Shown here: piece after piece, positions 3,029-20,912 of the stretch | Numbering within the stretch: position 1 is the stretch's first letter | Layout: every line of letters begins with the position of its first letter | Position numbers and translations under genes: made by a program | Notes under the pieces: model-generated | Told to the model about the DNA's origin: nothing | Database searches by the model: none | The model's input: only the letters and a program-made list of their open reading frames with translations | Assembly: GCA_017416505.1 (NCBI GenBank) | Contig: JAFQCI010000025.1 | Coordinates: 1 to 64,000, forward strand | Source of the DNA: Lachnospiraceae bacterium | Lineage (GTDB): Bacteria > Bacillota_A > Clostridia > Lachnospirales > Lachnospiraceae | Length of the DNA: 64,000 nucleotides | Direction: 5' to 3'

Positions 3029-3039
3029 AGGTGAAAAGA

Positions 3040-4512: not shown

Positions 4513-5942
4513 TGAGCAAAGCGTATGAAACAGTGATTGGTTTGGAAGTTCATGTGGAACTTTCTACCAAAACTAAGATTTTTTGCGGATGTAGTACCGA
4601 ATTTGGCGGTGCACCTAATACTCATACCTGCCCTGTATGTTCCGGAATGCCAGGCTCCCTTCCTGTTTTAAATAAAGCAGTGGTGGAAAAAGCTATCGCA
4701 GTAGGTCTTGCTACCAACTGCTCTATTACGAGAAATTGTAAGTTTGACCGTAAGAATTATTTTTATCCGGATAATCCACAGAACTACCAAATTTCCCAGT
4801 TGTATTATCCGATTTGCAGGGATGGAAAAATTGAAATTAATGTAGATGGTGAGAAAAAGTTTATTCGAATCCATGAAATTCATATGGAAGAAGATGCAGG
4901 AAAACTGGTTCATGATTCCTGGGATGATTCTACCTTGGTTGACTTTAACCGTTCCGGTGTGCCATTGATTGAAATTGTATCAGAACCGGATATGCGTTCT
5001 GCAGAGGAAGTTATTGCTTATCTTGAAAAGTTAAGAATGATAATTCAGTATTTAGGTGCTTCTGACTGTAAGTTAAATGAAGGTTCCATGAGAGCGGATG
5101 TAAATTTATCGGTACGGGAAGTTGGTGCAAAAGAATTTGGTACCAGAACAGAAACCAAGAACTTGAATTCTTTTAAGGCAATTGCCAGAGCTATTGAAGC
5201 AGAAAGGGAAAGACAAATTGACCTGTTAGAAGAAGGAAAACAGGTTATTCAGGAAACCAGAAGATGGGATGATAATAAAGAATGTTCTTATGCAATGCGT
5301 TCGAAGGAAGATGCTCAGGATTATCGTTATTTCCCAGATCCAGATTTGGTACCAATTATCATCAGTGAAGAATGGCTGGAAGAAGTAAAAAGCAGACAGC
5401 CGGAATTAAGAGATGAGAAAAAAGAAAGATACCAAAAGGAATTTGATATACCGGAATACGATATTGATATTATTACTTCTTCTAAGCGAATGGCAGATTT
5501 GTTTGAAGAAACCATAAAGTTAGGAGCCGCTCCAAAGAAGGTATCCAACTGGTTAATGGTAGAAACCATGCGTTTATTAAAAGAAAACGAGATGGAAGTA
5601 GAAGACATTAAGTTTGGTGCTGATAACCTTGCGAAATTAATTGCATTAACAGAAAGCAAGGCAATTAATAGTACAGTGGCGAAAGAAGTTTTTGAAAAGG
5701 TATTTTATGAAAACATTGATCCAGAAAAATACGTGGAAGAACATGGATTAAAGACAGTGAATGATGAAGGTGCCTTAAGAAAAGTCATTGAAGATGTGGT
5801 TGCTAATAATCCACAGTCAGTAGAAGATTACCGTAGTGGTAAGGAAAAAGCCATTGGATTTTTAGTAGGACAAACCATGAAAGCAATGAAGGGAAAAGCA
5901 GACCCTTCTATGATTAATCAGATTTTAAAAGAAATTTTATAA
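4512..5942 (+). CDS. gatB: Asp-tRNA(Asn)/Glu-tRNA(Gln) amidotransferase subunit B
   Basis: 476 aa, normal for GatB. The N-terminal kinase-like cradle starts with YETVIGLEVHVEL and carries the zinc-type cysteines (CGC...CPVC near residues 25-42), the NYFYPDNPQNYQISQ motif and HMEEDAGKL. The C-terminal helical and YqeY-like tail ends FLVGQTMKAMKGKADP, which recognises the tRNA elbow. It activates the misacylated tRNA with ATP and accepts ammonia from GatA. Last gene of the operon, followed by a long terminator. Confidence 0.96.
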   Translation: MSKAYETVIGLEVHVELSTKTKIFCGCSTEFGGAPNTHTCPVCSGMPGSLPVLNKAVVEKAIAVGLATNCSITRNCKFDRKNYFYPDNPQNYQISQLYYPICRDGKIEINVDGEKKFIRIHEIHMEEDAGKLVHDSWDDSTLVDFNRSGVPLIEIVSEPDMRSAEEVIAYLEKLRMIIQYLGASDCKLNEGSMRADVNLSVREVGAKEFGTRTETKNLNSFKAIARAIEAERERQIDLLEEGKQVIQETRRWDDNKECSYAMRSKEDAQDYRYFPDPDLVPIIISEEWLEEVKSRQPELRDEKKERYQKEFDIPEYDIDIITSSKRMADLFEETIKLGAAPKKVSNWLMVETMRLLKENEMEVEDIKFGADNLAKLIALTESKAINSTVAKEVFEKVFYENIDPEKYVEEHGLKTVNDEGALRKVIEDVVANNPQSVEDYRSGKEKAIGFLVGQTMKAMKGKADPSMINQILKEIL

Positions 5943-6008
5943 TAAGCGGCATTTATCTGCTTAAGCGGTGATTTATCAGGTATGTTGTGAATTATTCGTA
6001 AAAGAAGA

Positions 6009-6087
6009 AAAGAACTGTTCGATAAAATGAATTTAAAATAGAAATGTTGTTTTCAGTATTCATTTTATGGGATACAGTTCTTTTTTT
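6009..6087 (+). terminator. Rho-independent terminator after gatB
   Basis: Two coaxial stems: AGAACTGT pairs with ACAGTTCT outside, and ATAAAATGAAT with ATTCATTTTAT inside, followed by seven T. It ends the gatCAB transcript. Confidence 0.8.
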
Positions 6088-6102
6088 ATGGGAAAATAAA
6101 AG

Positions 6103-6262
6103 CAGTTAGACGTTACTGTTCACTCTTGCCTCGTAAACAGTAACAATTCGCAGGCTCATTTAGAGTTTTGCTTCGCAAAAGGAGCCTGCGAACTCCTGAA
6201 TCATGTTCTTACGCACCAAAACAGCAAGTGTTTTGGTGCTGTCTGTACAGTAACAGTTAGAC
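6103..6262 (+). repeat. MITE-like composite element, copy 2, with 9-nt flanking direct repeat
   Basis: CAGTTAGAC occurs at 6103-6111 and again at 6254-6262. The 142 bases between start GTTACTGTTCAC and end CTGTACAGTAA, so the ends are partly inverted repeats. Inside are three hairpins: 6112-6144 (family palindrome), 6147-6192 (11-bp perfect stem TTCGCAGGCTC with a nested TTTTG/CAAAA stem) and 6213-6239 (perfect 11-bp stem GCACCAAAACA). There is no coding capacity. The layout is that of a non-autonomous insertion with a 9-bp target duplication. The rest of the 5943-6343 gap shows no gene. Confidence 0.75.
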
Positions 6263-6343
6263 ATACTTTTTTCACAAATTTTACAAAAAGGATACACATT
6301 CATTTTTTATGATGGTAGCATAAGGATGAAAGGAGGAAAAATT

Positions 6344-7057
6344 ATGTCAGAGAATTTTCAACGAGTAGAAAAAAAATATCTGATGTCCAGAGAAACTTAT
6401 CGTGATTTTTTGAAAGAAACAGAAAAATATATTCAATTGGATGAATTTGGTTTACACACTATTTGCAATATATATTTTGATACAGACCATTATGATTTGA
6501 TTCGTAATTCTATTGAAAAGCCGGTTTATAAAGAGAAACTGCGTCTTAGAAGTTATGGAATTCCGGGAGAAAATGATAAGGTGTATCTGGAACTTAAAAA
6601 AAAGTGGAAGGGAATTGTATATAAACGAAGAATTTCACTCACACTAAAAGAAGCAGAAGATTATTTGGAACGAGGAGTAATACCAGCTCATAAAGACCAG
6701 ATTTTTAATGAGATAGATTATTTTGTTCATTTTTACCATCCAGAGCCAAAACTTTATCTGGCATATGACCGGAGAGCCTATTATGGATTAGAAGACCATA
6801 ATCTTCGAATTACTTTTGATGAAAACATCAGAAGCAGAGAAGAAGATTTGGAATTAGAGGATGGAGATTACGGGGAAAAATTACTAGAGGAAGATATGAT
6901 ATTAATGGAACTGAAAGTTCCTGGGGCAGTACCAATCTGGCTGTCAGAAATTATGTCCAGACTTCAAATTTACCCAACGTCCTTTTCGAAATATGGAAAT
7001 ATATATAAAAAGAAAATTGCTCTAGGAGGAAATGAAAGATGTTCACAAGTATCTTAA
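6344..7057 (+). CDS. Polyphosphate polymerase (VTC) domain protein
   Basis: 237-aa soluble protein of the VTC/triphosphate-tunnel fold. Typical tunnel motifs follow in order: RVEKKYLM (about 6-13), IYFDT, KEKLRLRSYG, YLELKKKW and YKRR, ITFDENIR, MELKV, and the C-terminal SFSKYG. In yeast Vtc4 this fold makes polyphosphate from ATP; in clostridia such genes usually sit with DUF4956 and CotH/DUF4353 genes, as here, and their substrate is not settled. I start at ATG 6344 behind AGGAGG (6331-6336). The 3' end overlaps the next gene by 19 bases. Confidence 0.88.
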   Translation: MSENFQRVEKKYLMSRETYRDFLKETEKYIQLDEFGLHTICNIYFDTDHYDLIRNSIEKPVYKEKLRLRSYGIPGENDKVYLELKKKWKGIVYKRRISLTLKEAEDYLERGVIPAHKDQIFNEIDYFVHFYHPEPKLYLAYDRRAYYGLEDHNLRITFDENIRSREEDLELEDGDYGEKLLEEDMILMELKVPGAVPIWLSEIMSRLQIYPTSFSKYGNIYKKKIALGGNERCSQVS

Positions 7058-7713
7058 CAGATGGAAGTACTACATTTAATATATTACAGGTGATTGGATG
7101 CACTATGGTATCTATTTTACTAGGACTGATAGTAGCCTGTGTATATATGTATAAATCTTCTTATACTAAAAATTTTGTCATTACTTTGGTTTTACTGCCT
7201 GCATTGGTACAGATAGTCATTATGCTTGTTAATGGAAATTTAGGAACCAGTGTTGCGGTATTAGGTGCCTTTAGCTTGGTGCGTTTCCGTTCCATTCCTG
7301 GTAGTTCGAAAGAAATTTCCAGTATTTTCTTTACAATGGCCATAGGATTGGCAACCGGTATGGGGTATATTACATATGCAGTAATATTTACTGCTATGAT
7401 TAGTATTATTTTGTTAATTTTAAATGGTACTAAATTTGGCGAGAAGAAGGAAAAATGTCATCAGCTTAAAATTACGATTCCGGATAATCTGGATTACACC
7501 GAAATTTTCGATGATGTATTTAAAGAATATACTTTAAGCCGTCAGCTTGTAAGAGTAAAAACAACCAATTTAGGAAGTATGTTTGAATTAACTTATGATA
7601 TTATATTAAAAGAAGAAGAAAAACAGAAAAAAATGATAGACTCCATTCGTTGCAGAAATGGAAATTTAACGGTTATTTGTGCAAGACCGCAGGCAGGAAT
7701 GGAAGAATTGTAA
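7039..7713 (+). CDS. DUF4956 family membrane protein
   Basis: 224 aa. Three hydrophobic segments occupy roughly residues 11-34, 44-82 and 95-130, with the family-characteristic GAFSLVRFRSIPGSSKEISSIF between the second and third. A ~95-residue cytoplasmic domain with mixed alpha/beta character (KITIPDNLDYTEIFDDVF...) follows. ATG 7039 lies inside the VTC gene with TAGGAGG upstream. DUF4956 proteins regularly accompany VTC-domain proteins, so it is probably the membrane partner or anchor of the polymerase-like enzyme. Molecular function unknown. Confidence 0.85.
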   Translation: MFTSILTDGSTTFNILQVIGCTMVSILLGLIVACVYMYKSSYTKNFVITLVLLPALVQIVIMLVNGNLGTSVAVLGAFSLVRFRSIPGSSKEISSIFFTMAIGLATGMGYITYAVIFTAMISIILLILNGTKFGEKKEKCHQLKITIPDNLDYTEIFDDVFKEYTLSRQLVRVKTTNLGSMFELTYDIILKEEEKQKKMIDSIRCRNGNLTVICARPQAGMEEL

Positions 7714-7732
7714 ACGGAGGCTTGGCGAAACT

Positions 7733-9313
7733 ATGTTAAAGATAAGAAAGTTTGTAATACTTACAACCATGGCGGCCGCTTTGTTTGGACTGACCGCGTG
7801 TTCTACAAAAGGTAACCAAAGCAGTAGCGGAACCCAGAATATAACAAAAGCAGGAACCTATGAATTTACCGGTGATATCGATGGAAGTATTGTGGTTGAT
7901 GCCGGGAAAGAGGATGAAGTTACACTGGTCTTGAATGGTGTAAATCTAACATCGGATGGGAACGATGCTGCCATAAAAATTTTGAAGGCGAAGAAGGTTA
8001 CGATTACCTTAGAAGATGGATCACAAAACACCATTGAGGATTCGGCAAAACGTAACACCAGTCAAACTTCCGACAGTGAAAATAGTGAAACGGATTTTGA
8101 TGCTGCCATTTATAGCAAAACAGATTTATATTTAAATGGAACTGGTGAATTAGTAGTTACAGGTAATTATGGGGATGGCATTGCCGGGAAAGATAGTGTG
8201 TATATAGAGGAAGGAACCTATAAGATTCAGGCTGCAAAGCATGGTATTATGGGAAAAGACTATTTGGAAATACAGGGAGGAAATTTTGAAATCAATTGCG
8301 AGCAGGATTCCTTCCATAGCAATGGGGATTTTGTAATTCAAAAGGGAAGTTTTTTGGTTGATTGTGGGGATGATGCTTTTCATGCAGAAACAGCATTAAA
8401 GATTGAGGATGGTACCATTGACATTACTGCCTGTAATGAAGGTCTGGAAGGAGAGACTGTGACAATTACTGGAGGAGAAATAAGCATTGTTTCTTCTGAT
8501 GACGGTATCAATGCAGCTTCTTCCGAAGAAACTACGAATGCAGGAAATCAAAGGGAAAATCCTTTTGAGGCAAATGGTAATAATGCAATCCAAATTGATG
8601 GTGGAAATATTTATATTAATGCTGGGGGAGATGGAATAGACTCCAACGGTAATGTTGTAGTAACAGGTGGAACTATTAAAATCGATGGCTCTGAAAATGG
8701 AGGAAATGGAGCCTTGGATTATGGCGGAATCTTTGAGGTTTCCGGAGGAAGTGTCATTGCAGTAGGGGCTTCTGGTATGGCTCTTGGAATATCGGATACT
8801 TCTTCTGTATATGGAATTATGATGACCTGTGATACGCAGATTTCGGCGAATACTCCTATCATCTTAGAAGATGAACAGGGAGAAGTGCTTCAGTATACTC
8901 CGGCGAAAAAGTATAATAGTGTAGTCATTGCAGATGCTGGATTAGAACAAGGAAAAAGTTATACGTTAAAAATCGGAGATAATATTTCTGTTACCTTTAC
9001 CATTAGTAATACAATGACTTATTTGAATCAGAATGGAGTTACAGAAGGTCAGAATGGTATGAATGGAGAATGGGGAAAAGGAGGAAAAAGAGATGACTTC
9101 GATAAAACCCAGATACCGGGCAATATGACCCAGGAAGAATTACCAGAAGATATGGTAATTCCAGAAGGAATGGAGATGCCAGAGGGTATGGTAAAGCCGG
9201 ATGGAACGCAAAAACCTGAGAACATGGAGTTACCACAAGGAATGGAGATGCCGGAAGGTACTAATAAACAAGGGAATACGCAGCAATCGGAAAGTACACA
9301 GGAAAATCCGTAG
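7733..9313 (+). CDS. Cell-surface lipoprotein with carbohydrate-binding beta-helix (DUF4353/Cthe_2159 type)
   Basis: 526 aa. The N-terminal signal ends in a lipobox (FGLTACS, Cys near residue 22), so it is exported and lipid-anchored. Residues about 35-430 are built of repeated DGIDS/GGTI-type beta-rungs (GDGIAGKD, SFHSNGDF, DAFHAETA, DGINAASS, DGIDSNGN), the parallel beta-helix of the Cthe_2159 family, which binds acidic or cellulosic polysaccharide. The last ~75 residues are low complexity with a PEGM/PENM hexapeptide-like repeat, likely a wall-spanning tail. ATG 7733 is chosen for the signal peptide; CGGAGG lies 12 bases before. Third gene of the VTC cluster. Confidence 0.85.
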   Translation: MLKIRKFVILTTMAAALFGLTACSTKGNQSSSGTQNITKAGTYEFTGDIDGSIVVDAGKEDEVTLVLNGVNLTSDGNDAAIKILKAKKVTITLEDGSQNTIEDSAKRNTSQTSDSENSETDFDAAIYSKTDLYLNGTGELVVTGNYGDGIAGKDSVYIEEGTYKIQAAKHGIMGKDYLEIQGGNFEINCEQDSFHSNGDFVIQKGSFLVDCGDDAFHAETALKIEDGTIDITACNEGLEGETVTITGGEISIVSSDDGINAASSEETTNAGNQRENPFEANGNNAIQIDGGNIYINAGGDGIDSNGNVVVTGGTIKIDGSENGGNGALDYGGIFEVSGGSVIAVGASGMALGISDTSSVYGIMMTCDTQISANTPIILEDEQGEVLQYTPAKKYNSVVIADAGLEQGKSYTLKIGDNISVTFTISNTMTYLNQNGVTEGQNGMNGEWGKGGKRDDFDKTQIPGNMTQEELPEDMVIPEGMEMPEGMVKPDGTQKPENMELPQGMEMPEGTNKQGNTQQSESTQENP

Positions 9314-9374
9314 TCCTTTTATTGCATGATTTTAAGTTTTTATTATCTTTGGAATTTTTAAATGGATATGAAAT

Positions 9375-9424
9375 AGAGAATCTTTTCAAAATGCAAAAAG
9401 CAGTTTTGTAGGATTCTCTTTTTA
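9375..9424 (+). terminator. Rho-independent terminator
   Basis: AGAGAATC (9375-9382) pairs with GATTCTCT (9412-9419) around an inner CAAAA/GTTTTG stem and is followed by a T-tract. It ends the VTC-DUF4956-lipoprotein operon. Confidence 0.8.
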
Positions 9425-9436
9425 CTTGTGACATTG

Positions 9437-9491
9437 CAGGAATAATTTACTGTACACTCGTACCTTGTGAACAGTAACAGGAATAATTTAC
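9437..9491 (+). repeat. MITE-like palindromic repeat, copy 3, with 14-nt flanking direct repeat
   Basis: The palindrome at 9446-9478 matches the family consensus (ACTGTACACTCG ... GTGAACAGTAAC). The 14-mer CAGGAATAATTTAC is present exactly at 9437-9450 and 9478-9491, overlapping the element ends, as expected from target duplication on insertion. With the boundary rule of copy 2 the duplication is nine bases (CAGGAATAA). Confidence 0.75.
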
Positions 9492-9516
9492 ATTCATATA
9501 TTTCGTGAAAAACTAT

Positions 9517-9546
9517 TTTACAACATACGTTGAAGTATGGTATGAT
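9517..9546 (+). promoter_or_regulatory. Promoter of the Hsp70 operon, with a possible operator
   Basis: TTTACA (9517-9522) and TATGAT (9541-9546) are 18 bases apart, 54 bases before the Hsp70 start. The spacer holds an inverted repeat CATAC-6-GTATG (9524-9539) that a repressor could occupy. No CIRCE heat-shock operator is seen. Confidence 0.6.
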
Positions 9547-9600
9547 ATATAGTATTGGAAAAAGTGAAAGAAAATATGGGGAAAGAAAGGTATAAGTAAA

Positions 9601-11295
9601 ATGATAGTAGGAATTGATTTAGGAACGACAAACAGTTTAGTTGCTTATTATACCGAAGAAGGACCAAAGATTATTCCGAATCGATTGGGAGAGCATCTTA
9701 CACCTTCTGTTATTAGTATAGATGAAGAGGACAGGCTATATATTGGAAAAACTGCAAAGGAAAGAATGTTATTATATCCTGATACCGCTGCCAGTGTATT
9801 TAAGAGGGACATGGGTAGTGATAAGGAATTCAAATTAGGAAATAAGACATTTAAGGCAGAAGAATTGTCTTCTTTTGTACTTCGTTCATTAAAAGAAGAT
9901 GCAGAGGAGTTTTTGGGAGAAGAAGTCACAGAGGCAGTTATCAGTGTACCGGCATATTTTAATGATGAAAGAAGAAAAGCAACAAAAAGAGCGGGTGAAT
10001 TGGCAGGTTTAAAGGTAGAACGAATTATTAGTGAGCCAACAGCTGCGGCTATTGCCTATGGGCTTTATCAGAGCAAAGAAAATGCGAAGTTTCTTGTGTT
10101 TGACTTAGGCGGCGGTACTTTCGATGTTTCTATTTTGGAATTGTTTGAAAATATTTTAGAAGTTCATGCAGTTGCGGGAGATAACTTCTTAGGTGGAGAA
10201 GACTTTACAGAGGTTATTGTTGATTTATTTTTCAATGAATTTAAGGAATTATCCAGAGAAACTCTTTCACAAAAAGAGTTAAAGCATATTAATAAGCAGG
10301 CTGAAAAGTGTAAATTTGGATTTGAAGACAGCAGAGTTTCGAAGATGAATTGTGTGATTCAGGATAAAAATTATGACTTTGAATTGTCTATTGATGCTTA
10401 TGAAAAGGCTTGTGAAGAACTGTTTGACCGTATGAAAGAACCGGTTAAGAAAAGTTTATCCGATGCTGGAGTAAAATTATCGGATATTGATAAAGTAGTT
10501 TTAGTTGGTGGTGCTACGAAATTAACTTTAGTGCGTAAATTTGTCAGCAGATTATTCCGTACCATGCCTGACTTAAATATTAATCCGGATGAGGCGGTAG
10601 CATTAGGTGCAGCCATTCAGGGTGCCATGAAGGAAAGAAAGGATTCCATTAGAGAAGTAATTCTTACGGATGTATGTCCTTTTACCTTAGGAACAGAAGT
10701 GGTAGTTCAAAATGATGCAGACCGTTACGAAGATGGACATTTTTGCCCGATTATCGAAAGAAATACGATTATACCTGCAAGTAGAACAGAGCGGGTATAT
10801 ACGGCACATGATTACCAGCCAAAGATTAGGGTAAAGGTATTACAGGGTGAAAGCCGTTATGCGAAAAATAACTTATTCTTGGGAGAATTAAATATTGATG
10901 TTCCAAAGAAAAAGGCAGGGGAGGTAGCCATTGATATTACCTATACTTATGACATTAATTCTTTATTAGAAGTAGAAGTAAAGGTAGTTGGAACAGATAC
11001 TAAGATTACGCAGATAATTAAGAATCAATATACAAAAATGACAGAGGATGAAATTAAGAAGCGTTTCGAGGAACTTTCTTATTTGAAGATTCATCCAAGG
11101 GAACAGGAAGAAAATAAATTATTACTGCTTCGTGGAGAACGTTTGTATGAAGAGAATTTAGGTGAAGAAAGAAAGATTATTGAACACCATATTATGAAAT
11201 TTGAATCTGTACTAGATACTCATGACCAGAAGAGAATTAATAAGCAAAGGGATGAATTTAAAGAATTTTTGGATAGCTACGAAGATTTTAATTAA
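9601..11295 (+). CDS. Hsp70 family chaperone, HscC-like
   Basis: 564 aa, shorter than DnaK (~610) and close to E. coli HscC. All ATPase motifs are intact: GIDLGTTNS (residues 4-12), SVPAYFNDERRKATKRAG, EPTAAAIAYG, FDLGGGTFDVS and VLVGGATKLTLVRKF. The substrate-binding beta domain is present; the helical lid is short and lacks the DnaK-type acidic EEVD-like tail. No dnaJ or grpE gene is nearby, and the true dnaK locus is presumably elsewhere. It has its own promoter. A terminator lies between it and the next gene, but only 26 bases then remain before that start codon, so the downstream genes are probably reached by read-through. Confidence 0.9.
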   Translation: MIVGIDLGTTNSLVAYYTEEGPKIIPNRLGEHLTPSVISIDEEDRLYIGKTAKERMLLYPDTAASVFKRDMGSDKEFKLGNKTFKAEELSSFVLRSLKEDAEEFLGEEVTEAVISVPAYFNDERRKATKRAGELAGLKVERIISEPTAAAIAYGLYQSKENAKFLVFDLGGGTFDVSILELFENILEVHAVAGDNFLGGEDFTEVIVDLFFNEFKELSRETLSQKELKHINKQAEKCKFGFEDSRVSKMNCVIQDKNYDFELSIDAYEKACEELFDRMKEPVKKSLSDAGVKLSDIDKVVLVGGATKLTLVRKFVSRLFRTMPDLNINPDEAVALGAAIQGAMKERKDSIREVILTDVCPFTLGTEVVVQNDADRYEDGHFCPIIERNTIIPASRTERVYTAHDYQPKIRVKVLQGESRYAKNNLFLGELNIDVPKKKAGEVAIDITYTYDINSLLEVEVKVVGTDTKITQIIKNQYTKMTEDEIKKRFEELSYLKIHPREQEENKLLLLRGERLYEENLGEERKIIEHHIMKFESVLDTHDQKRINKQRDEFKEFLDSYEDFN

Positions 11296-11302
11296 AAATA
11301 GA

Positions 11303-11344
11303 CCAGACAGAAGGAAAATATGTTTTCGCTGTCTGGCTTTTTTT
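11303..11344 (+). terminator. Terminator or attenuator after the Hsp70 gene
   Basis: CCAGACAG (11303-11310) pairs with CTGTCTGG (11329-11336), followed by a run of seven T. Because the next gene starts 27 bases later without a recognisable promoter, it may act as a partial terminator setting the ratio of chaperone to downstream proteins. Confidence 0.8.
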
Positions 11345-11370
11345 GAAAAAGAGAAAGGTGGATAATATAA

Positions 11371-13242
11371 ATGAAATCTAATATATCATATGAAGCAATC
11401 ACTTGGTATATAACTTTAGGAACGGGGATATTGTTCTTTTTAGCCGGAATTATATATCTTCTTTTGCAAAAAAGATTAAAAGAACACCATTTTATTAAGG
11501 CGGCCTGTTTGGAATTTATGGCAGAATGGATATTGATTTTACCGAATCAGTTATTTAATGAAATTCTCTATACCAATGATGCACTTTATATAGCGGAAAG
11601 TATTTGTACATCGTTTGTCAAAACCTTTAATATGTATTTGGGTGGTGGATATGAGAGATATACTTATACGGATAATCAGGTGTTTACAAGTGTATATTCC
11701 ATAGTGAGCATACTTGTATATATGGCTTTATTTGTATTTGTAACCGGCTTTTTGGTAACTTTCATGGATGGATTTGCACAACAGTTTGCAATGAAAAAAA
11801 GAGCCACCAGAAAGCAGTATATTTTTGCTGAATGTAATGAAAAAGCATTATCCATTGCCAAGAGTATTCCGAAAACGGGAAAGAAAAGCATTATTTTTGT
11901 GTATGAAGGGAAGCTGGACGAACCGGTGAAGGAAAAGATTCAGGAAATGGACGGATGCTATGTTGCTCTTTCTCTTACCCAGGTGGTAAAAAAGTTAAAC
12001 CGCAAGGCAAAAGAAATGGAATTGTTTTTGTTTGGCGAAAATGAAAAGGATAATATTCTTCGTTTAGGTGAAATAAGCAATGAAGGTTTATTGCAAAGTG
12101 GATGTAAAAAGAAAATCTATGTAGAGATACAGGATACGCCATGGAGTCTGTATGATGATTTCGTAGAAAAACTTAAAAATGGAGAACAGGAACAGACGGT
12201 AGTAAATTATATCAGAATAGAAGAAAATTATGTGTACAATCATCTTTTAAGCTGTTCTATTTTTGAAAAAGCCGTTGAAAATCCGGCAGAAAAGTGTAAA
12301 GATATCAATGTTTTGTTGATTGGTATGAACACAAGAAATTTTGAATTCTTGAAGGCTGTTTTACATCTGGGTCAGATGCCGGGGTATCATTTGAATATTA
12401 TGGTGCTGGATACAGGTGCAAATAGGGAACTGCTTTGGAAGAAAATGCCGGAAGTAAAGGATAGTTGTAAGGTTGTTGGAGATGCATGGTATTCTATCAT
12501 ATACAAAGAAAATGTATCATTGGATACTTGTGCATTAGAAACGATTGTAAAAGAAGAATTTATAGATTTTAGCTGGGCATATGTGGGGATGGAGGATGAG
12601 CTGAAGAGTATCGGTATTGCCATGAGACTGAACGGAGTTAAGTACAGAGCAGGACAAAAAAATGGATATATCATTCAGGTAAATGTTGAGAAAAAGGAAT
12701 TTTTGGATAATTATAATTCTGCTATGATGAAAAATATTGTACCAAGTGGAATGTTTTCTGAGATATATCACTATGATTTTGTTACCATGTCTGCCATCGA
12801 AAAGTGTTCCGCTGCAATTCATGAGGTTCGTAATCAAGAAAGAAAAAAAAATGATCCAAATTCGAATATTAAGAGCTGGGTAGCATATTGTAACAATGAA
12901 TACAACAGACATTCTGTTTATGCAAGGACACTTGCGTTAAAGTACAAAGTGGATTTGATTGAACAGAATTATGACTCGGATTATAGTCTGGTAAGCAAAG
13001 ACAGAACCTGGAAAATATATGAACATATGCGGTGGAATATGTATACACGAACCATGGGATATCAAGTGGCATCTAAGGAGATGATGGATGCTCTTGGTAA
13101 ATTGGACAGGGACGCTAGAAGCATTGCTATGATACATAAGGATTTGATTTTGTTTGAGGAACTTTCTAAAGAAGAACAGGATAAGGACGGCATTGTGCTG
13201 ACACCTGAGATTGTAGCAGAATTAAAGAAGTTGGGAAGATAA
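11371..13242 (+). CDS. Membrane protein with two Rossmann-like (TrkA-N-like) domains and a C-terminal RyR-like domain
   Basis: 623 aa. Hydrophobic helices lie at about 10-32 and 108-132, with a possible third near 50-62. A Rossmann-like unit follows at about 148-280 (KQYIFAECNEKALSIAKSIP...SIIFVYEG) and a second at about 311-430 (INVLLIGMNTRNFEFLKAV...NIMVLDTGA), resembling the TrkA-N/RCK layout. Residues about 546-606 (IYEHMRWNMYTRTMGY ... MIHKDLILFEEL ... EEQDKD) match the pattern of bacterial RyR domains (EH-RW-----GW ... HP-LVP-EEL ... EKD). RyR domains are known from nucleotide-sensing conflict systems, often with TIR effectors, and a TIR gene follows ten bases later. The glycine motifs are degenerate. 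Family assignment is by motif reading only. Confidence 0.65.
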   Translation: MKSNISYEAITWYITLGTGILFFLAGIIYLLLQKRLKEHHFIKAACLEFMAEWILILPNQLFNEILYTNDALYIAESICTSFVKTFNMYLGGGYERYTYTDNQVFTSVYSIVSILVYMALFVFVTGFLVTFMDGFAQQFAMKKRATRKQYIFAECNEKALSIAKSIPKTGKKSIIFVYEGKLDEPVKEKIQEMDGCYVALSLTQVVKKLNRKAKEMELFLFGENEKDNILRLGEISNEGLLQSGCKKKIYVEIQDTPWSLYDDFVEKLKNGEQEQTVVNYIRIEENYVYNHLLSCSIFEKAVENPAEKCKDINVLLIGMNTRNFEFLKAVLHLGQMPGYHLNIMVLDTGANRELLWKKMPEVKDSCKVVGDAWYSIIYKENVSLDTCALETIVKEEFIDFSWAYVGMEDELKSIGIAMRLNGVKYRAGQKNGYIIQVNVEKKEFLDNYNSAMMKNIVPSGMFSEIYHYDFVTMSAIEKCSAAIHEVRNQERKKNDPNSNIKSWVAYCNNEYNRHSVYARTLALKYKVDLIEQNYDSDYSLVSKDRTWKIYEHMRWNMYTRTMGYQVASKEMMDALGKLDRDARSIAMIHKDLILFEELSKEEQDKDGIVLTPEIVAELKKLGR

Positions 13243-13252
13243 GGAGAAGAAA

Positions 13253-15523
13253 ATGAATTATGATAATTTTGAAATAATGAATCATCCCATGAAACAAAAC
13301 GGAATGCAGATTAGAAATACAGAGCGGGTATATATGTGTGGACACTTGGGTGAGAAAAAAGCAATGGAGGACATAGGAACGATCATCCAGGATATGTATG
13401 TTGCAGATATATGGATTTCAAAAGGAGGGGAGGAATCCTTTGATGAGGAAGAATTAGAGGTTATTCTAAAAGAGATGAATTTAATCGTTGTTTTAATCAG
13501 CAATGTTTTTCTGAGTGAAAATTGTGCTGTAGGCAGTCGTGTACTAACTGCTGCTAAAAATATAGGGATACCTATCCTTCCAATCAAGATGGAGGAGGGA
13601 ATTGGAAGGAATTTTACAGAAATTTATGGCTCTTTGCATATGATAAATTATTGTAGTCAGAACTTCTATAACGAATTAAAAACGCATATCGAAAATTATA
13701 TTGATTTATACTATCCTGTGGGTAATACAGATGTTTCTAAAGAGAATCTGTTCCGGTTTAAGATATTTATATCCTACCGGAAAAAAGATTTATTATATCT
13801 AAAAAAAATATTGAATGTGATACGGCAATGGGATGAGCATATTGATACATCAGTTTGGTATGACGAAGCGTTGATTCCTGGTGAAAATTATAATGAACAG
13901 ATAAAAAAGCAGTTGCAGGAGGCTGATTTGGTTCTTCTTATTGTCACTCCTAACCTTTTAGAAGTGGGGAATTATGTAATGCAACACGAGTACCCTGATG
14001 CGGTGGGGTATGGGAAAAAAATTATTCCAGTGGTAATGAAAGAGACAGATAATATGGAGTTATCTCGGTATTATCCACAGATTTCAGATTTTATTTCTGG
14101 TGAAAATACAACTTTTTTGCGAGAGAGGATATATGAAATTCGAAAAAATTACGTGGAAGAGAGTGGAGAACTGTCAGCAAATACTTTATATAACCTTACA
14201 CTTAGTTATGCTTCCGGGCTTAAAACTGTGAGAGATAAAAATATGGCAGAAAAGTGCCAGCAGATGGCAGCTGAAAGAGGTAATTTATGGGCGAGAGCCA
14301 GACTTGGGAGAATCATGTGTGAGCGTGGTCAGATGAAGGAAGCACTTTGGTGGATGGAACAGGCTTTTGACGGTCTTTACATGATGGTTATGAAAGGTGA
14401 TACGGATGAAAAAATGGTGTTTTCTATCCAGTCGACTTTGGGTAAACTTTTTCACGAAATGTTTCCTGTATATATGAGAAATAGTCAGTATAATGAAGCA
14501 ATGGATTTTATTGTTAAAGTGTGGAAAATGCTTGATTATACAAGAGAATACGGTATGGTTGGTTCGACAGAATTGAACTACCATGTATTGATGCTATCTA
14601 TGGGCATGGTTTATTTTCATGTGGGAAACCTTGAAAAAGCGGATGATTTGTTAGCTCAGGCAGAGAAAGGTCTGAATGGTTGGAAAGATGCTGTACCGAG
14701 TGCATCCGCACATGCAAGATTGGTTGATTTGTATACATACCGGGGAAGAATTCTTCTGTTTATGATTCGTTATGGATATGTACATGCGGTGAATGTATTG
14801 GAAGAAGCGAGAAGGTATTTGGAAATCGCCATGGAAGAGATGATTTTGATGTCTGAAGTTTTGATGACAGATTCTCAAATGGAGCCGATGGTTCAAATTT
14901 TAGAAGCATATCATAAGTTGAGTAGTTATTATGCGTATTTTTGTCCGAATTTTGGTGGGTTGGATGTGATATTACAAAAAGAGACTGAGTTTATCAATTA
15001 TTTCTCACTTCATGCTGAGGCGGAAGCGATATTTTTACAGCACAATGATTTTCCTATTGATTTGCAATTTGAAAATTTACAGCAAATGAAAGATAAACTT
15101 GATATTAATACGTTGTGGCATGAGATTTTTGTTTCGCAGGAAGAACTAAGGAATCTTTTCTCTTTTTCGGGTGGATTTATTCCTGAAGGGGAGTTTGGGG
15201 AAGTGGAAGAACAATCAGTAGCATCTGCGTATAAATGTCCTGTGTGTCAAAAGCGTATGTATAAGACGGTATTTCCGGAAGGAAAGGATCCTGTTCTTTA
15301 TTTAGGACTTGATAAAATGAAATCTTTTTCTCCTGCCAGGGTATTTATGTGTCCGTGTGGTCGGATTTATGCTACACGCAAAGGATGTAAGCTGGTGGAT
15401 GGACCAGTTCATAGTGCCACACTTGTTGGAGATAAAACCAATTCTATGGGAATAACTTTATTTAATATATGGTGGGAATACTTTAATTCTATAGGAAGTC
15501 TCACAGCACGTAGGCGTGAGTAA
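13253..15523 (+). CDS. Tandem TIR-domain protein with TPR/Sel1-like repeats and C-terminal zinc ribbon
   Basis: 756 aa. The first TIR-like unit is at about 24-150 (RVYMCGHLGEKK ... LIVVLISNVFLSENC ... IPILPIKME) and lacks the catalytic glutamate. The second, at about 168-290, is canonical (FKIFISYRKKD, WYDEALIPGENYNEQIKKQL, ADLVLLIVTPN, IIPVVMKE), with E246 at the NADase glutamate position. Residues about 310-600 are helical repeats of TPR/Sel1 type. A zinc ribbon follows: CPVC (662/665) and CPC (700/702). TIR domains either cleave NAD or scaffold signalling; here the repeats would sense or bind partners. Encoded ten bases after the RyR-type protein, so the two very likely work together. Confidence 0.8.
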   Translation: MNYDNFEIMNHPMKQNGMQIRNTERVYMCGHLGEKKAMEDIGTIIQDMYVADIWISKGGEESFDEEELEVILKEMNLIVVLISNVFLSENCAVGSRVLTAAKNIGIPILPIKMEEGIGRNFTEIYGSLHMINYCSQNFYNELKTHIENYIDLYYPVGNTDVSKENLFRFKIFISYRKKDLLYLKKILNVIRQWDEHIDTSVWYDEALIPGENYNEQIKKQLQEADLVLLIVTPNLLEVGNYVMQHEYPDAVGYGKKIIPVVMKETDNMELSRYYPQISDFISGENTTFLRERIYEIRKNYVEESGELSANTLYNLTLSYASGLKTVRDKNMAEKCQQMAAERGNLWARARLGRIMCERGQMKEALWWMEQAFDGLYMMVMKGDTDEKMVFSIQSTLGKLFHEMFPVYMRNSQYNEAMDFIVKVWKMLDYTREYGMVGSTELNYHVLMLSMGMVYFHVGNLEKADDLLAQAEKGLNGWKDAVPSASAHARLVDLYTYRGRILLFMIRYGYVHAVNVLEEARRYLEIAMEEMILMSEVLMTDSQMEPMVQILEAYHKLSSYYAYFCPNFGGLDVILQKETEFINYFSLHAEAEAIFLQHNDFPIDLQFENLQQMKDKLDINTLWHEIFVSQEELRNLFSFSGGFIPEGEFGEVEEQSVASAYKCPVCQKRMYKTVFPEGKDPVLYLGLDKMKSFSPARVFMCPCGRIYATRKGCKLVDGPVHSATLVGDKTNSMGITLFNIWWEYFNSIGSLTARRRE

Positions 15524-15717: not shown

Positions 15718-16710
15718 TTATTCTTTGGAATCTCCCAGTTCCTTAAAGGCATCTACTGTCAATACCATATTTACGCCAAAAGGATTGATTACAAATCCAG
15801 CAATATTTTTAATGTCCATATTCTTTAATGTTTCATATGGATAAATTGCTGTAGTGTATTTGCCGATGTCCAAGGTACCTAAATTGTATTCATTAATATC
15901 TGTATACAATGGTATGTAATTTCCCATATCTTCCTGGGTTAATACCGGAAACTGTACATGGACTCCTTTTGGTAGGGTGGAACTGTCTTGTGACTGTTCT
16001 AATGCTTGCTTATCTACAATAACAGGAGTTAAGAATTTGGCAGTTTTAATAATTTGACATATCTTAGATTCTGTTACTTTAATAAAACGAGGGTCTACTT
16101 TTCTTTTCTGTGACTGAGCATATAATTGACAGTAATTTAATAAATAATACTGTAATTCAGGATTAATGACAGGAGCAATAGCGCCTTCTTTTGTAACCGG
16201 CTCAGGGTCAGGAATAAAGTCTGTCTTTTTAAATTGAATACTAATTTCTCCGTTATCAAGGATAATAAGAGAAACTCCAATACGATAAAGATTTGCACAA
16301 AACAGAACAAAATCCTCGGTATCCATAGCTTTTACAGTAAGAGAAATTCCTTCGTTTTCTTCCATATAGGTGACACAATTATTAGCAAAACCTTCCTCAG
16401 AGAAAATCCAGGCACCATACTGGCTTACAAATGGATGGTTGGTAGCTGTTGAATATACCGTATAAATGACATCGGTATTCTTCACAATAGAAACGATGTT
16501 TTTATAGAACATTTTCTCTCTGGCTTCAAAATAAGCATATTCTTTATCGGTTTCTTTGTGTTTTCCTTTGCAGTGAACTGTAGTAAAATGTGCGAATAAT
16601 AATTCCTGAATGTTGCATTTTGACAGTTCTTCCGGATTAATATCAAATACCATCTGGCTGATTTCTTTTCTTCGTTCTTCGGATAGTCTTCCTTTTTCGA
16701 TGTTTTCCAT
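15718..16710 (-). CDS. SseB-like domain protein
   Basis: 330 aa, soluble, no signal peptide. The C-terminal ~130 residues (AKFLTPVIVDK ... VQFPVLTQEDMGNYIPLYTDINEY ... YPYETLKNM ... GFVINPFGVNMVLT) fit the SseB N-terminal-domain family, which in enhanced-serine-sensitivity and T3SS-associated proteins forms an alpha/beta fold of unclear role. The N-terminal ~190 residues are not recognised. Encoded eight bases downstream of the PilZ gene on the same strand and likely co-transcribed. Function unknown. Confidence 0.75.
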   Translation of the reverse strand: MENIEKGRLSEERRKEISQMVFDINPEELSKCNIQELLFAHFTTVHCKGKHKETDKEYAYFEAREKMFYKNIVSIVKNTDVIYTVYSTATNHPFVSQYGAWIFSEEGFANNCVTYMEENEGISLTVKAMDTEDFVLFCANLYRIGVSLIILDNGEISIQFKKTDFIPDPEPVTKEGAIAPVINPELQYYLLNYCQLYAQSQKRKVDPRFIKVTESKICQIIKTAKFLTPVIVDKQALEQSQDSSTLPKGVHVQFPVLTQEDMGNYIPLYTDINEYNLGTLDIGKYTTAIYPYETLKNMDIKNIAGFVINPFGVNMVLTVDAFKELGDSKE

Positions 16711-16718
16711 AATAAAAA

Positions 16719-17081
16719 TTATACTCCTTCATTCTCGTCTAGTGATTCTTCATAGTTGTCCACTATTTCTTCTAAAATAAATGGAAGAGCAACAATTTCA
16801 CAACCGTAATGAGTACGACCGTCCTCTAAAAGCATACTGCGGATAATCTTAATTACGACTTTTATAACGTTGTCTTCACTTCCTAAATTCAATGTAGCAT
16901 TAAAATAATAACCTAAAGGTAAAGCGTCAGGACAAACAAAGCCGATTCCTGATTTAGACACATCGACAACTTCGATTTGTGAGCTGACCGGTTTATCCAA
17001 GTCTTTCTGATTATATAAGTGGGATACACTTAATTCAAGATGAATCGGTAAACGCCTAAATTTTCTTTTATCAATTCCCAT
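16719..17081 (-). CDS. PilZ domain protein (putative c-di-GMP receptor)
   Basis: 120 aa, a stand-alone PilZ domain. Both c-di-GMP signatures are present: the RKFRR (RxxxR) loop near residues 5-9 and DVSKSGIG (D-x-S-x-x-G) about 40 residues on. No other domain is attached, so it would act as an adaptor. ATG at 17081 is chosen because GGGAGG lies six bases upstream; a TTG at 17096 would begin inside that site. It leads a two-gene unit with the SseB-like protein and has a good promoter. Confidence 0.87.
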   Translation of the reverse strand: MGIDKRKFRRLPIHLELSVSHLYNQKDLDKPVSSQIEVVDVSKSGIGFVCPDALPLGYYFNATLNLGSEDNVIKVVIKIIRSMLLEDGRTHYGCEIVALPFILEEIVDNYEESLDENEGV

Positions 17082-17113
17082 AGTAGAACCTCCCAATAAA
17101 CTTTATCTATTGT

Positions 17114-17142
17114 ATTATAACTTATTTCATGTAAATGTGCAA
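17114..17142 (-). promoter_or_regulatory. Sigma-A type promoter for the pilZ-sseB pair
   Basis: On the minus strand TTGCAC (17142-17137) and TATAAT (17119-17114) are separated by 17 bases, about 33 bases before the ATG at 17081. Confidence 0.8.
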
Positions 17143-17222
17143 AGAAAAAATACAAAAAGAAGAAAGAAGTTAGGAATAAAGGAAGAAAAAATTAAAAAAA
17201 TAAAAAAAATATTAACTTGCTA

Positions 17223-17252
17223 TTGTGTAAATGCTATGTTAAGTGTTAGAAT
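17223..17252 (+). promoter_or_regulatory. Probable purC promoter
   Basis: TTGTGT (17223-17228) and TAGAAT (17247-17252) are 18 bases apart, leaving a ~100-base leader before purC. No purine riboswitch or terminator fold was recognised in the leader; a small GCGA-AG/CT-TCGC hairpin lies near 17261-17280. The remainder of 17097-17354 is A/T-rich and holds no supported gene. Confidence 0.4.
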
Positions 17253-17354
17253 AGATAATTGCGAGAGGTATGTCTTTCGCTATGCAGTTTTACATAAAGA
17301 AAATCTGAAGGGATGATTCACTTCGGTCTAATCTAAAAACAAGGAGAATGAAAA

Positions 17355-18062
17355 ATGGAAAAGAAGGAATTACTTTACGAAGGAAAGGCAAAGAAAGTTT
17401 TTACCACAAATCAAGAGGATGCATTGATTGTATCATACAAAGATGATGCTACAGCATTCAATGGAGAAAAGAAGGGAACAATTGTTGGTAAAGGTGTCGT
17501 GAATAATAGAATGACAAATCACATATTCCGAATTCTTGAAGAAAAAGGGATTCCAACACATTACATTGAAGAATTAAACGATAGAGAGACTGTTGTAAAG
17601 AAAGTAGAAATCGTACCTTTAGAAGTAATTGTCAGAAATGTGGCAGCAGGAAGTTTTTCAAAGAAATTAGGAATTGAAGAAGGTTTTGAATTAAAGGAAC
17701 CTACTTTGGAATTTAGTTATAAAAATGATGAACTTGGGGACCCAATGATTAACGATTATTATGCAGTTGCCATTGGAGCCGCTACCAGAGAAGAAATCAA
17801 CAAGATTACCGAATTGGTTTTCAAAATCAACAAAGAATTAGTAGAATTCTTTAAAGAACTTGGAATTCGTCTGATTGACTTTAAGGTTGAGTTTGGCCGT
17901 TATAAGGGAGAAATTATTTTAGCAGATGAAATTTCACCGGATACCTGCCGTTTCTGGGATTTAGAAACAAATGAAAAGTTAGATAAGGATAGATTCCGTA
18001 GAGATTTAGGAAATGTGGAAGAAGCTTATCAGGAAATCTTCAAGCGTTTAGGTTTATCATAG
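17355..18062 (+). CDS. purC: Phosphoribosylaminoimidazole-succinocarboxamide (SAICAR) synthase
   Basis: 235 aa, normal length. It joins CAIR and aspartate with ATP in purine synthesis. Family motifs are clear: [11 protein letters not shown] (residues 6-16), [56 protein letters not shown] and [18 protein letters not shown] precedes ATG 17355. First gene of a purC-purB-purA unit. Confidence 0.97.
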
Positions 18063-18136
18063 GGCAAAATACCTTTTGACCCCAACATCACAGAAATAGA
18101 ACTACATTTTATGGAAAAGTTACCAGGAGGAAAATA

Positions 18137-19585
18137 ATGAACGATAAATATCAAAGTCCATTATCAGAAAGATATGCCAGCAAGGAAATGCAATACATTT
18201 TTTCACCAGATATGAAGTTTAAGACCTGGAGAAAATTATGGATTGCCTTGGCAGAAGTAGAAGAAGAATTAGGTTTAAGTGAAGACGGAAAGCCTGTTAT
18301 CACGAAAGAGCAGATTGAAGAATTAAAGGCTCATGCTGATGAAATTAATTATGATGTTGCAAAAGAAAGAGAAAAACTGGTTCGCCATGATGTTATGTCC
18401 CATGTATATGCTTATGGTGAGCAGTGTCCAAATGCAAAGGGTATCATTCACTTAGGTGCTACCAGTTGTTATGTTGGAGATAACACAGATGTGATTATTA
18501 TGACAGAAGCATTAAAGCTTGTGCGTAAGAAATTAATAAATGTTATCAGTGAATTATCTAAATTTGCTATGCAATATAAAGATTTACCAACACTTGCTTT
18601 TACTCATTTCCAACCAGCACAGCCAACTACAGTTGGAAAAAGAGCCACTTTATGGTTGATGGAATTAAAGCTTGATTTAGATGATATCGAATATATGATT
18701 AGCCAGCAGAAATTGTTAGGTTCAAAAGGTACTACTGGTACACAGGCAAGTTTCCTTGAATTATTTAACGGCGACCATGAAACCATTCGTAAGATTGATG
18801 GCATGATTGCAAAGAAGATGGGATTTGAAGACTGTTATCCGGTATCCGGACAGACTTATTCCAGAAAAGTAGATGCCAGAGTATTGAACGTATTAAGCGG
18901 AATTGCTCAAAGTGCACATAAGTTTTCTAATGATATCCGTTTATTACAACACTTAAAAGAAATCGAAGAACCATTCGAAAAGAATCAAATCGGTTCTTCT
19001 GCTATGGCATATAAGAGAAATCCAATGAGAAGCGAAAGAATTGCATCATTGGCGAATTATGTAATGGTAGATGCTTTGAATCCTGCTATTACTGCAGCAA
19101 CTCAATGGTTCGAAAGAACATTGGATGATTCAGCTAATAAGAGAATTTCTGTTCCGGAAGCTTTCTTGGCAATCGATGGTATTTTAGATTTGTATTTGAA
19201 TGTAGTAGATGGATTGGTAGTTTATGATAAAGTAATTTATCAGCATTTCATGAAGGAAATTCCTTTTATGGCAACAGAAAATATTATGATGGATGCTGTA
19301 AAACGAGGAGGAAACAGACAGGAACTTCATGAATTAATCCGTACTCATTCTATGGCAGCAGCGGCAGTAGTAAAACAAGAAGGAAAAGAAAATGATTTGG
19401 TAGACCGTATTGCAAATGATAAGGCATTTGGAATGACAAAAGAACAAATCGAAGCAATTCTGGAACCAAAGAATTTTGTGGGTAGAGCCCCAGAACAGAC
19501 AGAAGAATTCATTCGTGAAGTCATTGACCCTATCTTAGAAGCAAACAAAGAACTTCTGGGAATGACAGCAGAAATTAATGTATAA
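18137..19585 (+). CDS. purB: Adenylosuccinate lyase
   Basis: 482 aa. It releases fumarate from SAICAR and from adenylosuccinate, so it acts directly after both PurC and PurA. Fumarase-superfamily signatures are present: HDVMSHVYAYG, HLGATSCYVGDNTD, LAFTHFQPAQPTTVGKR and the catalytic loop GSSAMAYKRNPMRSE near residue 285. AGGAGG lies just before ATG 18137. The 74-base gap after purC shows no terminator. Confidence 0.97.
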   Translation: MNDKYQSPLSERYASKEMQYIFSPDMKFKTWRKLWIALAEVEEELGLSEDGKPVITKEQIEELKAHADEINYDVAKEREKLVRHDVMSHVYAYGEQCPNAKGIIHLGATSCYVGDNTDVIIMTEALKLVRKKLINVISELSKFAMQYKDLPTLAFTHFQPAQPTTVGKRATLWLMELKLDLDDIEYMISQQKLLGSKGTTGTQASFLELFNGDHETIRKIDGMIAKKMGFEDCYPVSGQTYSRKVDARVLNVLSGIAQSAHKFSNDIRLLQHLKEIEEPFEKNQIGSSAMAYKRNPMRSERIASLANYVMVDALNPAITAATQWFERTLDDSANKRISVPEAFLAIDGILDLYLNVVDGLVVYDKVIYQHFMKEIPFMATENIMMDAVKRGGNRQELHELIRTHSMAAAAVVKQEGKENDLVDRIANDKAFGMTKEQIEAILEPKNFVGRAPEQTEEFIREVIDPILEANKELLGMTAEINV

Positions 19586-19609
19586 TATACAGAGTTTAGG
19601 AGGATAAGC

Positions 19610-20899
19610 ATGGTTAAAGCAGTTGTAGGAGCCAATTGGGGCGACGAAGGAAAAGGTAAAATCACAGATATGCTGGCGCAGGAAGCAGACATTATTGTGC
19701 GTTTCCAAGGTGGTGCAAATGCAGGACATACTATCGTGAACAGTTATGGTAAATTTGCACTTCATACTTTGCCATCTGGTGTGTTTTATGACCATACCAC
19801 CAGTATCATCGGAAATGGTGTTGCTTTAAATATTCCTGTATTGTTTAAAGAAGTAAGCGAAATTATCGAAAAGGGTGTTCCAATGCCAAAGATTTTAGTA
19901 TCTGACAGAGCACAGATGGTTATGCCTTACCACATTTTGTTCGATGCTTACGAAGAAGAACGTTTGGCAGGAAAGTCATTTGGTTCCACCAAATCAGGTA
20001 TTGCACCTTTTTATTCTGATAAATATGCAAAAATCGGTTTCCAGGTAAGTGAATTATACGATGAAGAAGCGTTAAAAGAAAAATTGGAAAGAGTGGTTGC
20101 ATCCAAAAATGTATTATTAGAGCACTTATATCATAAGCCATTGTTAGATGCAGAAGAATTATTCCAGACTTTAATGGAATACAGAACTATGGTAGACCCA
20201 TATGTTTGTGATGTATCTGTATTTTTGGACGAGGCAATCAAGGAAGGAAAGACTATTTTATTAGAAGGTCAGTTAGGTTCCTTAAAGGACCCAGACCATG
20301 GTATTTATCCAATGGTAACTTCCTCTTCTACTTTGGCAGCTTATGGTGCCATTGGAGCAGGTATTCCACCATATGAAATCAAAGAAATCATTACTGTATG
20401 TAAAGCATACTCCAGTGCAGTAGGTGCTGGTGCTTTTGTAAGCGAAATTTTTGGTGATGAAGCAGATGAGTTAAGAAGACGTGGTGGTGACGGTGGTGAA
20501 TATGGTGCTACTACAGGTCGTCCAAGACGTATGGGATGGTTTGATGTAGTTGCGTCTAAGTATGGATGTAGAATTCAGGGAACTACTGATGTTGCGTTTA
20601 CCGTGTTAGATGTACTTGGATATTTGGATGAAATTCCAGTATGCGTAGCTTATGATATCGATGGAGAAATTACAACAGATTTCCCTGTGACTCATAAATT
20701 AGAAAAAGCAAAACCAGTATTAGAAGTGTTACCGGGATGGAAGACTGATATTCGTGGTATTAAGAAATACGAAGATTTACCGGAAAATTGCCGTAAATAT
20801 ATTGAATTTGTAGAAGAAAAGATTGGCTTCCCAATCACTATGATTTCAAACGGTCCTAGCAGAGATGATATTATTTATCGTAAAAAGGTAAATAATTAA
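19610..20899 (+). CDS. purA: Adenylosuccinate synthetase
   Basis: 429 aa. GTP-dependent ligation of IMP and aspartate, the first step from IMP to AMP. The P-loop-like GANWGDEGKGK is at residues 7-17, NAGHT follows, then the IMP-binding region (LPSGVFYD, GATTGRPRRMGWFD) and C-terminal NGPSRDD. GGAGG precedes ATG 19610, 24 bases after purB. The IMP-to-AMP branch enzymes are thus encoded together. Confidence 0.97.
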   Translation: MVKAVVGANWGDEGKGKITDMLAQEADIIVRFQGGANAGHTIVNSYGKFALHTLPSGVFYDHTTSIIGNGVALNIPVLFKEVSEIIEKGVPMPKILVSDRAQMVMPYHILFDAYEEERLAGKSFGSTKSGIAPFYSDKYAKIGFQVSELYDEEALKEKLERVVASKNVLLEHLYHKPLLDAEELFQTLMEYRTMVDPYVCDVSVFLDEAIKEGKTILLEGQLGSLKDPDHGIYPMVTSSSTLAAYGAIGAGIPPYEIKEIITVCKAYSSAVGAGAFVSEIFGDEADELRRRGGDGGEYGATTGRPRRMGWFDVVASKYGCRIQGTTDVAFTVLDVLGYLDEIPVCVAYDIDGEITTDFPVTHKLEKAKPVLEVLPGWKTDIRGIKKYEDLPENCRKYIEFVEEKIGFPITMISNGPSRDDIIYRKKVNN

Positions 20900-20912
20900 T
20901 CTGCTCATATGC

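Follow-up and report, generated by a model that had tools for sequence, protein, structure and literature searches.

The question raised by this locus is whether three neighbouring genes, coding for an Hsp70 chaperone, a membrane protein and a protein with two TIR domains, work together as one signalling system. They lie in a stretch of 64,000 nucleotides from a Lachnospiraceae bacterium (called gut-type; GCA_017416505.1, contig JAFQCI010000025.1, positions 1-64,000), and this whole stretch is referred to here as the window. A sequence-only reading had taken the three genes as an operon in which the membrane protein senses, the TIR protein executes and the chaperone acts as gatekeeper. Our analysis shows a unit of two members, the genes for the membrane protein and the TIR protein, which are present or absent as a block. 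Judged from sequence, it is fairly probable that the pair signals in the manner of Thoeris and acts through an ion channel. Coordinates of the features are collected in Table 1.

The three genes are co-directional and the last two are ten bases apart, as had been described, and open reading frames, strands and spacing agree on this. The gap between the Hsp70 gene and the membrane gene is 75 bases, and AAGGAG lies in the gap region between the membrane gene and the TIR gene. The Hsp70 protein was searched in 299 genomes of one family and strong matches (E≤1e-150) were found in 50. The best of them, in a sister genome (G460, locus L091), is 98.6% identical. By blastn this locus aligns to window positions 169-5946, 6257-11297 and 15718-23878 in the same order with 85-88% nucleotide identity. 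The missing stretch begins just behind the Hsp70 gene, ends where the next gene begins and contains the membrane gene and the TIR gene; the other break, at 5947-6256, is a short intergenic stretch. In the sister genome both flanks are separated by 104 bases, with at most 8 bases of similarity to the window intergenic sequence. A search of that genome with the membrane protein gave no match, and the same search was positive in three of three control genomes. The empty site fits insertion or loss alike, and the only exact repeat between the cassette ends is 9 bases long.

For the survey of gene order, 33 loci of the membrane-protein family (channel loci hereafter) were drawn from 84,980 species, one genome per species. 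This number is a lower bound because the scan requires exact peptide patterns. An Hsp70 gene adjoins the membrane gene in none of the 33 relatives, 29 of which have at least 1 kb of upstream sequence, and in L010 a distant Hsp70 member of 336 amino acids (aa) lies about 8 kb from the membrane gene. Among these loci L001 has the membrane gene closest to that of the window (86% identical), and it comes from a genome whose best Hsp70 match is 41% and is located on another contig. In one genome (G020) an Hsp70 orthologue and a channel relative are both present, on separate contigs. In the regions around 20 of the 50 Hsp70 orthologues (L091-L109, and L082 with 3 kb only) neither a channel gene nor a TIR or RyR gene was seen. 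An open reading frame of 986-1192 aa adjoins the Hsp70 orthologue in 17 of these 20 regions (within L092-L109), but does not adjoin Hsp70 in the window. The Hsp70 gene is followed by an intrinsic terminator (fold -16 kcal/mol, z -3.2) located within the stretch that is not common to the sister genome. Our terminator scan missed it because its loop exceeds the allowed length, and a promoter scan gave 25 sites vs 27.5 in shuffled sequences, i.e. no excess. Hsp70 as a gatekeeper or member of the unit is ruled out by the lack of adjacency in 33 relatives, the terminator and the sister genome that retains Hsp70. By the test proposed with it, co-occurrence of the three genes in other genomes, the trio is refuted; what survives of the proposed gene order is the pairing of the membrane gene with a TIR gene.

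Table 1. Features of the two-gene unit and its immediate surroundings in the window
Feature	Coordinates	Strand	Basis or remark
Hsp70 gene, 564 aa	9601..11295	+	Open reading frame; PF00012, E 2e-130; flanking gene outside the unit
Stretch absent from the sister genome	11298..15717	+	blastn against L091: matches stop at 11297 and resume at 15718
Intrinsic terminator after Hsp70, before the pair	11303..11343	+	8-bp perfect stem, 7 T
Predicted RCK-gated ion channel with C-terminal RyR domain, 623 aa	11371..13242	+	Open reading frame, structure model
Pore-like module, residues 38-143	11482..11799	+	DSSP helices 38-64, 70-89, 103-143; GGGYER at residue 91
Tandem RCK (Rossmann-like) domains, about residues 148-495	11812..12855	+	Predicted model
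RyR domain, about residues 503-623	12877..13239	+	hhalign; profile of the family alignment (A1) against PDB
Site residues H552, W555, H589, D606	13024..13188	+	Counterparts of RyDEP H75, W78, H100, D117
Tandem-TIR/TPR/zinc-ribbon protein, 756 aa	13253..15523	+	Open reading frame, Pfam, model
First TIR, residues 16-151	13298..13705	+	Val replaces the catalytic Glu
Second TIR, residues 162-300	13736..14152	+	Catalytic Glu E246 at 13988
TPR-like helical repeats, residues 309-596	14177..15040	+	Secondary structure of the model; Foldseek

What does the membrane protein look like? Its structure model (pLDDT 88.1, pTM 0.78) matched Slo2.2, CASTOR/DMI1, GsuK, MthK and TrkA in the Foldseek/VIA search. 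In the model it shares with RCK channels (Slo, MthK, GsuK, CASTOR/DMI1) and with TrkA a pore-like module followed by tandem RCK domains, and the two Rossmann-like units recognised earlier correspond to these domains of the TrkA/Slo/CASTOR type. An extra hydrophobic helix is present at residues 7-32, and the Slo1 alignment begins at model residue 36. It differs from the RCK channels in that identity is 6-13% among the matches listed, a K+ filter motif is lacking and a RyR domain is added. A pore module joined to RCK gating domains is what characterises an RCK-gated channel, and the protein is predicted from its model to be an ion channel with a pore-like module, two RCK domains and a C-terminal RyR domain. 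Two relatives, L060 and L062, carry the K+ filter TVGYGD together with a RyR match; one of these genes lies 7 bp from a TIR gene and the other 2.9 kb from one.

The RyR-like character of the C-terminal domain, which had been suggested before, was borne out by profile comparison. The family alignment (A1) has 28 rows, the window protein and 27 of the 30 database proteins at E≤0.001. PF02026 (RyR) was the commonest Pfam match in it, in 7 of 28 members at E≤1 (the next family in 2), with a best E of 0.0026, which is under the Pfam curated cut-off as judged by comparison with scored rows. When residues 495-623 were compared by hhalign with a bacterial RyR set of other genomes, the probability was 96.2% (P 2.6e-9), vs 0.1% for the control segments 145-300 and 300-495 of the same protein. 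Five of the six PDB sequences matched by the A1 profile at E≤1 were ryanodine receptors (best E 3e-4). PF02026 matched at E≤0.01 in 13 of the 33 genomes with a channel relative, in 7 of them above the cut-off, and position and frame length place some of the weak matches within the membrane gene. With the channel model as query, the Foldseek/VIA matches listed comprised RCK proteins and further Rossmann proteins and included no RyR structure; this is not counter-evidence because one domain can fill such lists.

The domain has a conserved site with counterparts in the phage protein RyDEP. According to a phage preprint, phage RyR domains bind or cleave 2'/3' cyclic ADP-ribose (cADPR), and in RyDEP catalysis relies on the dyad H75 and D117, W78 supports the adenine and the phosphates are held by H100 (PMC13232231). 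The counterparts in the window protein were placed only by motif, spacing and alignment to the RyR profile. The window domain shares with the RyR domains of the RyDEP and sponge type the pattern H-x-x-W, H, D, and the H-to-D spacing is 17 in RyDEP, in a canonical bacterial reference and in the window. The H-to-H spacing is 25 in RyDEP and in the canonical bacterial reference, whereas it is 37 in the window. In A1, H552 and W555 are found in 27 of 27 ungapped rows, and H589 and D606 in all 28. Among 15 canonical bacterial RyR domains the four positions were kept in 15 (H), 13 (W), 6 (H) and 11 (D), so the window family is more complete at this site. By analogy with the phage proteins, the window domain may bind 2'/3'cADPR. 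Unlike them it is encoded by the host, sits on a membrane RCK protein and has a TIR gene linked to it, and for these reasons it is probably a receptor and not a counter-defence protein.

The same site could be read in another way, with RyR mainly an enzyme that removes the TIR signal as an off switch and the membrane part only an anchor. Both positions of the glycosidase dyad of RyDEP are unchanged throughout the family (H552, D606), and RyDEP cleaves the signal. According to the same preprint, however, six of eight phage homologues bound signals and none besides RyDEP cleaved them (PMC13232231), and the pore-plus-RCK architecture and the K+ channel relatives would be left unexplained. We consider the off switch distinctly unlikely.

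Separate small RyR genes were also seen: in L028 (11821-12117) and L029 (10496-10783) a gene of 95-98 aa follows the channel gene and could be a built-in sponge. The small protein of L028 strongly matches animal ryanodine receptor repeats. With one small bacterial RyR protein as the query, 220 phage records were matched at E≤1e-3.

The TIR protein carries two TIR domains, as had been proposed. The second was found by Pfam as TIR_2 (residues 171-266, E 2e-11), and the named residue E246 is invariant in all 24 rows of the TIR-protein alignment (A2). For the degenerate first TIR an iterated profile gives an inflated E-value because it feeds on its own matches. Non-circular support comes from hhalign of A2 columns 16-155 vs 160-300 (98.4%, with controls at 0.2-0.3%) and from a profile built on second TIRs alone, which finds the first TIR when searched against the one sequence (E 2.8e-7). 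Nine tandem-TIR proteins were compared (the window protein and eight from seven loci): the Glu is present in the second TIR of all nine, and the first TIR lacks it in eight, L030 retaining one. This comparison leaves aside L029, with two TIRs far apart and both with Glu, and the broken gene of L023. The domain and the catalytic Glu of a TIR NADase are both present in the second TIR, which is predicted to cleave or cyclise NAD+ (nicotinamide adenine dinucleotide). Behind the TIR domains Pfam TPR matches are weak, and Foldseek matches of the model were for the most part repeat proteins, with numerous TPR and Sel1 proteins. Zinc-ribbon motifs begin at residues 662 (CPVC) and 700 (CPCG), where model confidence is low. 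The protein weakly matches ThsB (PADLOC, E 1.6e-6) and ThcB4 (NCBIfam, E 0.009, far below the cut-off).

How firmly are the two genes joined in other genomes? A TIR gene was found within 250 bp of 10 of the 33 channel loci (9 on the same strand), against 0.16 expected from a background of 169 TIR_2 matches in 88.8 Mb, shared ancestry being uncorrected, and within 5 kb of 17. All ten TIRs within 250 bp are Pfam TIR_2 matches by position. The RyR domain is rare, with matches at E≤1e-4 in 6 of 299 genomes of a phylum sample. Fourteen further RyR regions, i.e. RyR matches away from the 33 channel loci, came from twelve genomes (L064 and L065 from the same one). A TIR gene lies within about 5 kb in nine of them (L037, L060, L062, L064, L065, L066, L068, L069, L070), a DUF4062 gene within the same distance in two (L063, L071) and neither in three (L059, L061, L067); all eleven partners pass Pfam. 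RyR and TIR domains, their pairing and the nucleotide-signalling flavour of the earlier proposal were upheld, and the membership of Hsp70 was not.

The TIR partners of RyR genes vary. The TIR partners of the channel family carry TPR (window), Sel1 (L033) or WD40 (L013, 4.4 kb away), and those of the other RyR genes carry Sel1 (L060), WD40 (L069), LRR (L068) or NACHT-TPR (L065). In the genome of L001 the window TIR protein has a sole match, with 27% identity over residues 24-370: another tandem-TIR gene, located 18 bp downstream of the channel gene. There the channel is kept and the TIR partner is different. An order in which TIR signals and RyR receives fits because RyR is constant and the TIR inputs are exchangeable, several with sensor-type repeats. 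On this argument we favour the order from TIR to channel, and the reverse order, which had been proposed first, is less likely. In its explicit form the reverse order makes the channel the sensor of an ion, ADP-ribose or NAD+ change through RCK and RyR, and the TIR protein an executioner that depletes NAD+. Many bacterial TIRs are indeed NAD+-depleting effectors, and by their titles the matched RCK structures TrkA and GsuK were solved with ATP, ADP or NAD. The varied TIR partners beside a constant RyR speak against it, as does the binding of TIR products by phage RyR domains (PMC13232231), and we regard it as unlikely.

The favoured two-gene unit with an ion-channel output could work as follows. 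The TPR part of the TIR protein would detect a cue, probably phage infection, and the second TIR, through E246, would turn NAD+ into an ADP-ribose-type signal, e.g. 2'- or 3'-cyclic ADP-ribose. This signal would be bound by the membrane protein through its RyR domain, the RCK ring would open the pore, and the ion flux could halt growth or kill the infected cell. The RyR site may also slowly cleave the signal and so reset the switch, because both residues of the RyDEP dyad (H75/D117) are kept.

A number of observations weigh against this picture. The excess of linked TIR genes is uncorrected for shared ancestry, as said, and no TIR was found within 5 kb in 16 of the 33 channel loci, several of which are shortened by contig ends; in one of them, L018, a DUF4062 gene stands tail to tail with the channel gene. 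Six of the twelve genomes behind the other RyR regions had been chosen for holding a channel relative. The window membrane protein alone has no Pfam match at E≤1. The K+ selectivity filter TxGYG is not present in it (GGGYER instead), hydropathy shows only two strongly hydrophobic helices, and Foldseek TM-scores for the channel rows are low, 0.23-0.36 by query. Ion conduction therefore stays a prediction, given the missing filter and the two helices. The guanine-plus-cytosine content of the cassette equals that of the window, and neighbourhoods, by eye, resemble housekeeping regions and not defence islands. The A1 profile found no relative in viral contigs. On this null, together with the absence of a plasmid match for the three-gene stretch by megablast, phage or plasmid origin was rejected. 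A 22-kb unannotated record labelled Bacteriophage sp. holds a distant relative of the membrane protein (22% identity), with no TIR in the 13 kb examined, and relatives of the TIR protein occur in viral contigs at two loci, L076 and L077.

The housekeeping type of the neighbourhood would suit an ion-homeostasis or stress-signalling unit with no phage role, in which TIR is a scaffold; RCK proteins usually serve K+ homeostasis. Against it stand the sparse distribution (at least 33 loci in 84,980 species, and missing from the sister species), the different TIR partner of the closest relative L001 and the invariant catalytic Glu, which together make such a unit very improbable. As for the neighbours themselves, VTC-domain, DUF4956 and Cthe_2159-type proteins are encoded consecutively upstream of Hsp70 (6326-9313). 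At 21043-27864 a DUF5717 protein is followed by proteins of 411 aa (actin/Hsp70-like by eye), 284 aa and 390 aa, the last with a hydrophobic stretch.

Where does such a pair stand among known systems? Thoeris types I and II combine a ThsB TIR protein with a SIR2-SLOG or Macro-TM ThsA, and type II has membrane effectors. The window pair resembles Thoeris in its two genes, one for a TIR with the catalytic Glu and one for a protein whose domain is of a kind that binds ADP-ribose-type molecules; it differs in its partner, an RCK channel that carries a RyR domain. Thoeris links a TIR gene to the gene of a nucleotide-responsive effector; here the linkage seen is to a RyR gene, and the partner may respond to a nucleotide. 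Neither the membrane protein nor its K+ channel relatives matched a model of a named Thoeris effector; the membrane protein had no PADLOC match and in NCBIfam only a chance-level ilvA row (E 0.047). DUF4062 genes adjoin RyR genes at L018, L063 and L071, a likeness to 'Swarozyc', the TIR-like NADase systems of DUF4062 according to a 2026 preprint (PMC13174449); the window pair differs in having true TIR domains. Among the literature matches listed, the phage preprint (PMC13232231) was the sole one to treat RyR domains together with TIR signals, and Yirmiya et al. 2025 could already describe RyR effectors. No paper in the collection searched joined Thoeris with a potassium channel, and the matches joining Thoeris with ryanodine were the phage preprint and a review on axon degeneration. 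The phage preprint also names cADPR as implicated in the control of animal ryanodine receptors (PMC13232231).

Fusions of RyR with other domains widen the picture. RyR is fused to a protein kinase (L013), RelA/SpoT (L065) and an AAA ATPase (L066). In L013 (2464-11956) a TIR-WD40 gene, an unnamed gene, a kinase gene with C-terminal RyR and a channel-RyR gene follow one another with overlaps of a few bases. In L065 (7814-10408) an 864-aa protein joins a RelA/SpoT synthetase, a weak SLOG (LSDAT) and RyR, 1.6 kb from a TIR-NACHT-TPR gene, which points to a possible alarmone output for the same signal. In L066 (7812-13066) AAA-RyR, TIR and membrane-RyR genes are contiguous on one strand. Tentatively, and with less assurance than for the window pair itself, RyR could be a general bacterial receptor for TIR-made ADP-ribose signals with many outputs, that of the window being a cADPR-gated ion channel. 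Such a role may be likened to that of CARF for cyclic oligoadenylates, with outputs through a channel (window, L060, L062), kinase, RelA/SpoT or AAA.

The window protein shares with animal ryanodine receptors a RyR (Repeat12) domain on an ion channel; the channel is otherwise unrelated, with no sign of Ca2+ conduction. Direct action of cADPR on ryanodine receptors has long been disputed, and a TIR enzyme beside a channel with an intact RyR site would make this question testable in a simple system. If the proposed role is true, ion channels would join the outputs of TIR immunity, and it could be explained why many phages carry RyR proteins. The pair would then correspond, in bacteria, to the axis of cADPR and ryanodine receptor in animals.

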